A stretch of 6,986 nt of DNA, taken from assembly GCA_023512255.1 (NCBI GenBank), contig JAILZY010000136.1, positions 1 to 6,986 on the forward strand, in the 5' to 3' direction. The notes under the pieces are model-generated. The model saw only the letters and a program-made list of their open reading frames with translations, was not told the DNA's origin and made no database searches. How positions within the stretch are numbered: the first letter of the stretch is position 1; every line of letters begins with the position of its first letter. Of this stretch, positions 2,219-6,392 are shown piece after piece. Origin of the DNA: a bacterium (GTDB lineage Bacteria > SZUA-182 > DTGQ01). The translations under genes and the position numbers were made by a program.

Positions 2219-2791
2219 CTAAGCTCTGGATATATAGCGTACCTCTCGGGTGTCAATTTTGATCCGCTCACCCTCTTTCATATAACTTGGCACCTGAATT
2301 GTCAACCCTGTCTCTGTCCTGGCTGTTTTGCTCTGGGCCTGGGCTGTTGCTCCCTTGATCACTGGTTCGCATTCAACAATAGTTTGTTCAACGACCTGAG
2401 GAAGATCAACATTGACCACACTCCCCTTGTAAATATGCAGGATAACATCCAGCCCATCCATCAGGAGCAGCTTACGATCGCCGATAATTTCTTCTGACAA
2501 GCTCACTTGATCATAGGTTTCTTTATCCATGAAGACAAAATCTCTTCCGTCAGCATACAGAAATTGGCCGCTTCGGCGTTCAAAATCAGGCTGCTCAACC
2601 TTGTCCCCTCCCCGGAAGGACTTGTCAAATACCTGCCCGGTGAGCAGATTCCGACACTTGACCTTGACCAACATGTTTGCCCCGCGAGCCGAAGGGGTCT
2701 GAAAAGCCACGTCGATAACCTCAAATGGGGCGTCATCTATCTGGAAAATTTCACCTCGCTTCAGATCATTTACCACCATTACACCTGCCAT
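2219..2791 (-). CDS. efpL: Elongation factor P-like protein, EfpL/YeiP type
   Basis: A 190-residue, full-length EF-P-fold protein that binds between the ribosomal P and E sites to relieve stalling at proline-rich sequences. The N-terminal domain is about residues 5-65, the two OB-like domains about 70-130 and 133-190. The loop that enters the peptidyl-transferase centre reads TPSARGAN, with Arg36 at the tip. This is the EfpL/YeiP signature; canonical EF-P has a PGKG- or PGR-type loop with a modified Lys or Arg. FVFMDKETYDQ, the VIKGATA segment and the C-terminal TGLTIQVPSYMKEGERIKIDTR signature support the family. AGGAG (2804-2808) lies 12 nt before the ATG. Met5 (codon 2777-2779) is an alternative start that would place the tip Arg at 32, close to Arg33 of E. 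coli YeiP. It is a single-gene unit with its own promoter, convergent to the ATPase gene. yeiP is the older name. Confidence 0.95.
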   Translation of the reverse strand: MAGVMVVNDLKRGEIFQIDDAPFEVIDVAFQTPSARGANMLVKVKCRNLLTGQVFDKSFRGGDKVEQPDFERRSGQFLYADGRDFVFMDKETYDQVSLSEEIIGDRKLLLMDGLDVILHIYKGSVVNVDLPQVVEQTIVECEPVIKGATAQAQSKTARTETGLTIQVPSYMKEGERIKIDTREVRYISRA

Positions 2792-3455: not shown

Positions 3456-6392
3456 ATGGCAGCTACCCAAATCTGGACTCATCAAAAACAAGGGGGGAGT
3501 CTGCTCTTTTTAAGGATCTTTGGGAAGCCAGCCTTTCTACTCATGTTCTTGCTCTTTCTGACATTTATTCCCCCGCTAATTTATCTGGCCGATCAATTGG
3601 CCGCAGCCGAGGATTTCACCGCCAGGATAGATACTCTTGAGCCTCACATCATGACCAAATCTGACGATCATCTGGTAACAGTCAGGGGAAGCGGCCTTGA
3701 TCAGGTTGCGAGGGTTATTCTGACCCAGTCTTTGCCCTCCATCCGCAATGTAGGGCCTGATGAAGATGACCTGCCCAAATACTTTACCAGAGACATTAAG
3801 ACTTTTGATATGCGCTTTCCTTACCTCTATGCTATTGCCAATTACTCAGATGGCAAAAGCAGTTATTCAAAGGTTCTGATCATTGATGTTAGTGATCCTA
3901 ATAATCTGAAATTAAAAAAAACATTTCAATATCCGGGATTTAGTAATTCATTGCAAGATATCAAAGTATCGGATGATTACCTTCTTATTACCGATTTTGA
4001 GAAAGGTCTGTGGGTATTTGATATTTCAAATCCTCTACTGCCTAAGCAAAAAATTTTGCTCCCTGACCCTAGTGCCTATGGAATTTATGTCGGTGATTAT
4101 GTTAGTGATAATGATAAGCAGGGAGTCTTGGCAGGGGATAAGAGCCGCCTGCTCTATCTCACCAACTGGAAGTCAGGGCTTAAAATCTATAAATGGTTTA
4201 TTACTACAGCTCGTTTTGTTTTGTTGTCCTCATCTCCGATAATATCCCCTTATAATTTAGATGTTCAGATCCACCCATCTACCCACGAGTGTTATATCTA
4301 TATAGCTAACGGCAAGTCAGCCAAAATCATTAGCCAATCTTCAGGTGCAGTCATAAATTCTATTGATGTAAACCGCCTGCTTGGTCAAAATGACTCTTCC
4401 TATCCCCCCAATATCGTGGATGTAAAGATAAAGGACAGCCGCTATGCCTATATTGTTGACAGCAGCTTTGGTCTGTATGTGATAGATGTAAACATCCCTG
4501 AGCAGCCGGCAATCGTAGGCCGACTTCCTCTGCCATCTGGCAGGAAATCAATCACTTTCTGGGAAAATCTGGCTCTAGTCGCTGCCGGATCCTCAGGGAT
4601 AGATCTGATTGATATCTCTAAACCATCAAATCCTGTGTTGCGCCATAATGTCTCTACACAGGGAAATGCGAATTTCATAAAGGTTGAGGATGGGAAGGAA
4701 GCTTATGCCTTAATCGCCAATGGAAACAATGGGCTGGCCTTATTGAGTCTTCAGTTGCTTCTTCCCAAGGCTTCGGGAGGGCATTTGTTTATGGAAGGAG
4801 ATATTTGGGACATAACCATAGCCGCGGATTATGCCTATATATCAGCAGGGGAGAAGGGTCTGAAAGTTATCAACTTGAAAGATCCCTGGCTCCCTCGCCT
4901 TGAGTACTCGCTAGATAAAGCGAACACTGGATGGGACCAGGTTAAGGTTTCAAAATGTTGCGTTCAGAAAAACAATCTTTATCTGGCCAACGGGAGCAAT
5001 CTTTGCCTGTTTAGTCTTTCCCCTGACTACAGCCTTGCCTCGCTAAGGGAAACCATTCGTAGGGACGATGCGATCCAATCCTTAAGCCTTCAGGGTGATT
5101 ATCTCTATCTTCTGAGCTTAGTCAAAGGCCTTCAGATTTTTCAGATCACCCCCTGCCTTAGTCGCTCTCCCAGTGGAGCGGTGAGAGTAGGATCAATGCC
5201 TCAGGAGGTCACGGTACAGGGTAATTTGGCCTATGTTGCTGGTGGAAGTGAAGGATTGTGGATTATTGATGTTACTAATCCAGCCAAACCTCAAAAAATC
5301 TCTCAAAAATCATTCTCTCCTGCACTTGTTCTGGATGTTGAGGTAAAAGGCGATTATGCTTATCTTGTTAATGGAAGCTATGGGATAAGTGTGGTTAAGG
5401 TAGCTGAAAAAAATAATCTGGTAATAATAGGCTCCTTGGTAGAAGAATTCCAGTATGATTACTTACAAGATTGTGCCATAGGGGGAGATTTCCTTTATGC
5501 AGCTGGACAATCTAACGGCATATGGGTCATGGATATCTCAAGGCCTTCATCTCCCGTGGTCTTATACAATATCGCAGTTATGAATGGAGCTAATTTTATT
5601 TTTGTCGATCAAAACTATATTTATGCTGCCAATAAATTCGGTGGGTTTGATATTTATTTAGTTCCAAAAGCGCTACCCATTGAGCGCCCTTGCCAAGCAG
5701 CAGAGGGTAGCTTCCAGGATCCGAACTGCCTCCGGTTTCGACTCCCCTTGTCTGATCTGCCGGCTGGTTGGTATGATTTGATCTTCCTAGATGTTGAGGG
5801 GAAGATAATTAGAAAGTATCAAGCTCTGCAGTTTGAGGAGCAGGCATATGTTGAACTGAGGGCCGGGTTAAACCTTTTCGGATATCCAGGAAAGGTTCCA
5901 GATGAAAACAGCACCTCATGGCAACTGTTGAATTCTTTCGCCGGAGCAGCCTATTCTCTCTGGCAGGAGAGCTCGCGGCAGGTCTCTTACTGGCTACCCC
6001 ATAATTCATCAAGTGGCGATATGTTTGAGATTAGGGATGGGCAGGCCTATTTACTCTATGCCCGGGAGGATAGCCCACCAGTATCTTTGAGCGCGGACTA
6101 TTTTTATCCATTTGAAGCTGCCTTGTCTCGAATCGGAAGCAAACTGACTGAGGGCGTTAATTGGATCTCCTTTCCTATTGAAGAGCAGCCCACTGAAGAT
6201 AAAGAGGCTTTCTCTTTTAGAGTCTTCGATCAGTTTAGCGGATTTGCTGCTGACGGCCATAAGCTAGTTGGGATAGATAGGCTAAATACTTGGTCAGGGA
6301 AATGGGAGTCTGCTTACGGATTTTATAACCGATGCAGTGGCCGTAATTTCCCTATCCGCCGGGCCGAAGGATATCGGGTATTCAGGTATTGA
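3456..6392 (+). CDS. Secreted LVIVD-repeat beta-propeller protein
   Basis: A 978-residue exported protein of unknown specific function. Residues 16-51 form a signal peptide or N-terminal anchor: basic Arg20/Lys24, a hydrophobic core at 26-45, and a likely cleavage near LAAA-ED (about 51). Residues 57-90 look like the first half of an IPT/TIG Ig-like fold. Residues about 120-740 hold some 14 LVIVD-type blades of 35-45 residues, with the pattern DYAYLV..G..GL.VIDVS.P..P (clear at 319-358, 582-618 and 668-706), enough for two seven-bladed propellers. Residues 757-795 (LPAGWYDLIFLDVEG) look like the second half of a TIG fold. Two C-terminal repeats follow (about 800-870 and 897-978) of the GWNLISLP...GYWI type. 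Such proteins are usually surface or extracellular. ATG 3456 is the first start after an in-frame TAG (3450-3452), but it has no good Shine-Dalgarno. Met30 would lose the basic n-region. No sorting signal is seen. Confidence 0.88.
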   Translation: MAATQIWTHQKQGGSLLFLRIFGKPAFLLMFLLFLTFIPPLIYLADQLAAAEDFTARIDTLEPHIMTKSDDHLVTVRGSGLDQVARVILTQSLPSIRNVGPDEDDLPKYFTRDIKTFDMRFPYLYAIANYSDGKSSYSKVLIIDVSDPNNLKLKKTFQYPGFSNSLQDIKVSDDYLLITDFEKGLWVFDISNPLLPKQKILLPDPSAYGIYVGDYVSDNDKQGVLAGDKSRLLYLTNWKSGLKIYKWFITTARFVLLSSSPIISPYNLDVQIHPSTHECYIYIANGKSAKIISQSSGAVINSIDVNRLLGQNDSSYPPNIVDVKIKDSRYAYIVDSSFGLYVIDVNIPEQPAIVGRLPLPSGRKSITFWENLALVAAGSSGIDLIDISKPSNPVLRHNVSTQGNANFIKVEDGKEAYALIANGNNGLALLSLQLLLPKASGGHLFMEGDIWDITIAADYAYISAGEKGLKVINLKDPWLPRLEYSLDKANTGWDQVKVSKCCVQKNNLYLANGSNLCLFSLSPDYSLASLRETIRRDDAIQSLSLQGDYLYLLSLVKGLQIFQITPCLSRSPSGAVRVGSMPQEVTVQGNLAYVAGGSEGLWIIDVTNPAKPQKISQKSFSPALVLDVEVKGDYAYLVNGSYGISVVKVAEKNNLVIIGSLVEEFQYDYLQDCAIGGDFLYAAGQSNGIWVMDISRPSSPVVLYNIAVMNGANFIFVDQNYIYAANKFGGFDIYLVPKALPIERPCQAAEGSFQDPNCLRFRLPLSDLPAGWYDLIFLDVEGKIIRKYQALQFEEQAYVELRAGLNLFGYPGKVPDENSTSWQLLNSFAGAAYSLWQESSRQVSYWLPHNSSSGDMFEIRDGQAYLLYAREDSPPVSLSADYFYPFEAALSRIGSKLTEGVNWISFPIEEQPTEDKEAFSFRVFDQFSGFAADGHKLVGIDRLNTWSGKWESAYGFYNRCSGRNFPIRRAEGYRVFRY

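Follow-up and report, generated by a model that had tools for sequence, protein, structure and literature searches.

A predicted IPT/TIG domain split by an inserted LVIVD propeller array in probably exported bacterial proteins

Do the two short segments that flank an array of LVIVD repeats in a bacterial protein belong to one Ig-like domain? The window, by which we mean the entire 6,986-nucleotide stretch of DNA that was analyzed, contains one large open reading frame (3456–6392, plus strand) that encodes a protein of 978 amino acids. A first-pass annotation had proposed that within this protein (bases 3624 to 5840, or residues 57 to 795), a TIG-like fold is split by the whole LVIVD region. 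We estimate a probability of roughly 87% for the following reading of the sequence: the protein would have one IPT/TIG domain with a 14-blade LVIVD array inserted in its hairpin, and the domain would be a two-point clasp that mounts the propeller head. The parts of the protein are:

3456..3608, plus strand: signal-peptide-like N terminus (residues 1–51; read by eye from the sequence)
3618..3728, plus strand: putative first half of the split IPT/TIG domain (residues 55–91; hhalign to uninterrupted TIGs, columns 1–34)
3729..5687, plus strand: inserted LVIVD propeller array (residues 92–744, 14 blades; Pfam LVIVD and HMM count)
5688..5846, plus strand: putative second half of the split IPT/TIG domain (residues 745–797; blind scan and hhalign columns 42–74)
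5856..6389, plus strand: C-terminal domain (residues 801–978; two repeats of about 85 amino acids each)

The protein, its propeller array, and its neighbors

Residues 1–51 have a basic start and a long hydrophobic run followed by AAA-ED, and the corresponding residues are AQA-Q and VQA-Q in the orthologs. The protein is probably exported or secreted. Given this signal-peptide-like N terminus, the mature protein would begin directly with the first half of the TIG.

A Pfam search with the intact protein identified LVIVD (PF08309) in eight stretches (E 2e-35, 120.3 bits, over the cut-off), and the array is composed of tandem 42-residue repeats, as is characteristic of LVIVD. The protein scored below the cut-off for the Choice-of-anchor B family (TIGR04312; 40.9 bits versus 100). 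The first-pass annotation had estimated that about 660 residues with some 14 blades lie between the halves. Our count agrees, with 14 blades in 664 amino acids (the insert is about 650–664 amino acids); this and the other blade numbers that we report are from a simple HMM count that is off by one in places. The array opens with LPSIRNV, which resembles a strand d, and closes with strand c (FDIYLV).

With one ortholog in the alignment, AlphaFold gave an unusable model (mean pLDDT of 42). With rows for viral LVIVD proteins added, the mean pLDDT was 69.6 and the strands were consistent with 14 blades. The propeller regions of this model are mostly at a pLDDT of 80–90 and have a beta-propeller fold. 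VIA-align matches the first ring of this model to WD40 propellers (Z of 31.8), and a structure search with Foldseek matched tandem WD40 propellers such as AIP1. The first ring looks eight-bladed in the structure alignment, which may reflect the register of the alignment. Foldseek and VIA-align see only propellers, and the absence of TIG matches from their results carries no meaning.

The C-terminal domain (residues 801–978) had no match in Pfam. Five genomes from this order each contain 10–14 copies of the domain according to a profile for it (A7), and nine other genomes contain none. Among the proteins that we read, the domain lies at the C terminus of exported proteins of very different kinds (protease-like, TIG, and LVIVD), and it is a candidate for a lineage-specific surface sorting or anchoring domain. 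In two proteins (C122 from the same genome as the window, locus L009, and C121 from G004, locus L080), complete TIGs lie directly before this C-terminal domain, so the combination of TIG and C-terminal domain exists with and without a propeller.

Elsewhere in the window, a helix-turn-helix, excisionase-like ORF (368–790) is followed by an AAA ATPase ORF (815–2077). The ATPase resembles a PEP-CTERM-associated ATPase, at a score under the cut-off (160 versus 324.5 bits), and also resembles MuB-like transposition proteins. An ordinary gene for elongation factor P (2219–2791, minus strand) converges with the ATPase gene on one side and diverges from the TIG-LVIVD gene on the other.

Joining the two halves

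Pfam found no TIG in the intact window protein, and neither half had a Pfam match when searched alone. After the halves were joined, they matched TIG (PF01833) across positions 2–69 of the 84-position profile (E 0.028, 14.9 bits). Similarly, the joined halves of the ortholog from another genome of the same genus (G001) matched across positions 2–72 of 84 (E 8.6e-4, 19.7 bits). Only joining the halves gave a match over most of the length of the profile. Both of these joins are under the curated cut-off for PF01833 (20.9 bits), while joins from paralogs scored 21.3 to 35.6 bits, except for one at 14.6 bits.

Short beta-rich segments might resemble TIG by chance, and the window join, taken by itself, has a borderline Pfam match (E 0.028). 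Several results speak against this explanation, which we consider extremely improbable. Our reference was an HMM of 25 TIG domains that have no interruption (from the same genome and from other genomes). The window join scored 22.2 bits with this HMM, and none of 2,000 shuffles of the second half reached that score. The G001 join also scored above all 2,000 of its shuffles. (A divergent ortholog from G002 did not pass this test by itself, as 279 of 2,000 shuffles of its C-terminal half reached the score of the real join.) In a blind scan, we fixed the N-terminal half and tried every downstream stretch of 50 amino acids from the same protein as its completion. For the window protein, the best completion starts at residue 746, with 25.2 bits versus 17.8 bits for the best site elsewhere. 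Across 20 units, the best completion was at the expected site in 17; in two, it fell on the C-terminal half of a different split TIG within the protein, and for one (the divergent G002 ortholog), the expected completion was not found. The paralogs, whose joins reach E values as low as 9.5e-9, already contradict chance, and so does the recurrence of the split in two phyla (described below).

We also compared the halves of three orthologs to a TIG profile of 84 columns with hhalign. The N-terminal half aligned to columns 1–34 and the C-terminal half to columns 42–74, while the join aligned to columns 1–74 (96.5%, with a score of 49.8, or up to 51.5 if the start is shifted). We ran 79 joins as controls: the join that starts at residue 725, and so overlaps the true second half, scored 42.2, and all of the others scored 31.2 or less. 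In addition, residues 55–91 had an E value of 4e-14 with a home-made HMM for the first half of TIG (TIG-N), which was built with the window sequence included. Residues 55–91 and 745–797 thus appear to be two complementary parts of a single TIG profile that do not overlap. This profile comparison of the halves, alone and joined, had been suggested by the first-pass annotation, and it bears out, at the level of sequence, the proposal of a split fold: once joined, the halves cover TIG from end to end, and each alone matches only its own part. The first segment does resemble only the first half of an IPT/TIG domain. The second segment was also recognized correctly as a second half, but it begins near residue 745 rather than at residue 757.

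Recurrence with a fixed split site

When we searched the genome that contains the window for TIG with Pfam, we found matches to only the first half of the domain (up to about column 39) before three other LVIVD proteins. We read the proteins at C69, C120, and C143, and in each of them, the missing half of the TIG was present after the propeller; the C143 protein has two split TIG units. Proteins from G001, G002, and G004 likewise have the missing half after the propeller. The joined halves of six units matched PF01833, five of them with E below 3e-4 and one at 0.034. Across seven genomes, all 16 of the joined units that we scanned matched PF01833 (best E of 1.2e-12). Furthermore, a profile of these 16 joined units finds solved IPT domains, including those of plexin-A1 (6.8e-10), SGBP-B from Bacteroidetes, COE1, and MET. 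It also matches the IPT domain of CGTase (3.9e-7) in an alignment that spans the join.

Overall, we identified the split arrangement in 24 units from seven genomes, which represent the window's phylum and one other. A junction profile (TIG-N plus the first blade) was compared to 386 genomes; among the matches listed, those that were near full length were only from G000–G004, G094, and G235. G094 and G235 belong to the other phylum, and their proteins also carry the second TIG half. In this second phylum, three of the four genomes examined have a split TIG. At 20 LVIVD loci from other phyla, we saw no flanking TIG halves. A search of the genome collection for relatives found the full architecture only in the G002 ortholog, and a search of viral contigs found LVIVD proteins but none with a split TIG. 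A tree of the joined and intact TIGs (94 columns) is poorly resolved, and it does not separate one insertion event from several.

Two side observations concern related LVIVD proteins. The C143 protein (locus L070, minus strand) has 2,066 amino acids, its two split TIG units contain 14 and about 6 blades, and acidic repeats of the DxDxDG type lie between these units. On viral contigs (L143, L145, L146, and L149), there are 7-blade LVIVD propellers, some of them in series via linkers of about 60 residues, and these also open with strand d and end with strand c. The viral proteins may be fibre or appendage proteins.

In all 24 of the aligned units, the domain is cut at the same place, after the strand "V.I.gg" and before the segment "v.yid...l.v..P"; uninterrupted TIG relatives have a short turn here. 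TIG residues are retained on both sides of the insert in every unit. The insert itself varies from 258 to 921 amino acids: most units have 14 blades, two have about 6, two have 21–22, and one each has 7, 9, and 11. We had considered that the number of blades might always be a multiple of seven, and we rejected this because 6, 9, and 11 occur. We also rejected a disulfide bond that joins the halves: cysteines are present on both sides in some units of the second phylum, but not consistently.

Could the segments instead be degenerate half-domains that pack separately on the propellers, one as a strand cap and the other as a hairpin, and form no common sandwich? The AlphaFold model built with viral rows shows the first half as coil (pLDDT of about 30) and the second as a free hairpin (pLDDT of 28–64), at low confidence; we read this model as neither for nor against the packing of the halves in one sandwich. 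In contrast, independent remnants are not expected to keep their register in two phyla, yet the halves are complementary without overlap and TIG residues persist on both sides throughout. We therefore regard separate packing as unlikely.

A proposed two-point mounting and its relation to known systems

The protein from G004 at C238 (L079:1867–4152, minus strand) has exactly seven readable blades. Its array starts with PYITGTYDT, which corresponds to the outer strand d, and ends with LQVIKL, which corresponds to the inner strand c. This is the strand order of the usual propeller closure, and it brings the two ends of the chain to the same blade, a requirement for insertion in a hairpin. It also bears on another alternative, in which the first half from one molecule pairs with the second half from another and links the proteins into dimers or chains. 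Strand exchange is known for Ig-like folds, and this alternative is compatible with the sequences. But with both ends leaving the same blade, as they would in the 7-blade case, pairing within the chain needs no exchange, and we judge intermolecular completion to be quite improbable. In the 14-blade window protein, each end of the chain may belong to a separate ring, and their closeness is an assumption on our part.

Under the preferred reading, of a single TIG domain completed within the chain, the exported protein would complete its TIG from both chain ends once the propeller array has closed. As the array starts with outer strand d and ends with inner strand c, the TIG strands would leave from neighboring places, so the TIG would clasp the closure and mount the propeller by two chain connections, holding it out as a binding head. 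The C-terminal domain would then sort the protein to the cell surface or anchor it there. Of the possible roles, adhesion or binding is the likeliest. More tentatively, the split TIG might be a reusable bracket, in which a constant clasp fixes both ends of propeller trains of variable length, the head can grow or be swapped while the mounting is unchanged, and folding of the TIG enforces or reports closure of the propeller.

If the preferred reading is correct, then the insertion of whole propellers into an Ig-like domain recurs in two distant phyla. Standard annotation misses this arrangement and sees at most half of a TIG. The arrangement suggests a search rule for finding more cases (half of a TIG, a repeat array, and the other half), and it offers a natural system in which to study how such large inserts (250 to over 900 residues) are accommodated by a hairpin. 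Both families, TIG and LVIVD, were known before, as was domain insertion in general; it is the arrangement that appears to be new. No published account of a TIG that contains a propeller is known to us, and a targeted literature search of partial coverage turned up none. The same search found no example with LVIVD repeats, in keeping with the first-pass annotation, which knew of none.

The window protein resembles the IPT/TIG domains (PF01833) of plexin, MET, COE1, CGTase, and SGBP-B from Bacteroidetes in that its joined halves match the profile end to end, but in the window-type proteins, an insert of 250 to over 900 residues in a single hairpin interrupts this domain. Proteins with LVIVD repeats (PF08309) are described, in the portions of the literature that we covered, from the surfaces of bacteria and archaea (PMC2447325), and the repeats have been modelled as propellers (PMC8078820). 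The window protein shares with them the 42-residue repeat and an exported, multi-domain context; the flanking TIG halves set it apart from the 20 loci that we examined in other phyla. Two other systems combine propellers with other domains. Plexins and MET are surface proteins in which PSI and IPT domains follow a Sema propeller, so they too have both a propeller and IPT domains, but their propeller precedes intact IPT domains instead of being inserted in one. In prolyl oligopeptidase and DPP4, a propeller is inserted in the chain of an alpha/beta-hydrolase, so that it has the N-terminal portion of a single domain on one side and the C-terminal portion on the other, much as we propose here; however, that host domain is an enzyme rather than Ig-like, and the propeller is unrelated.
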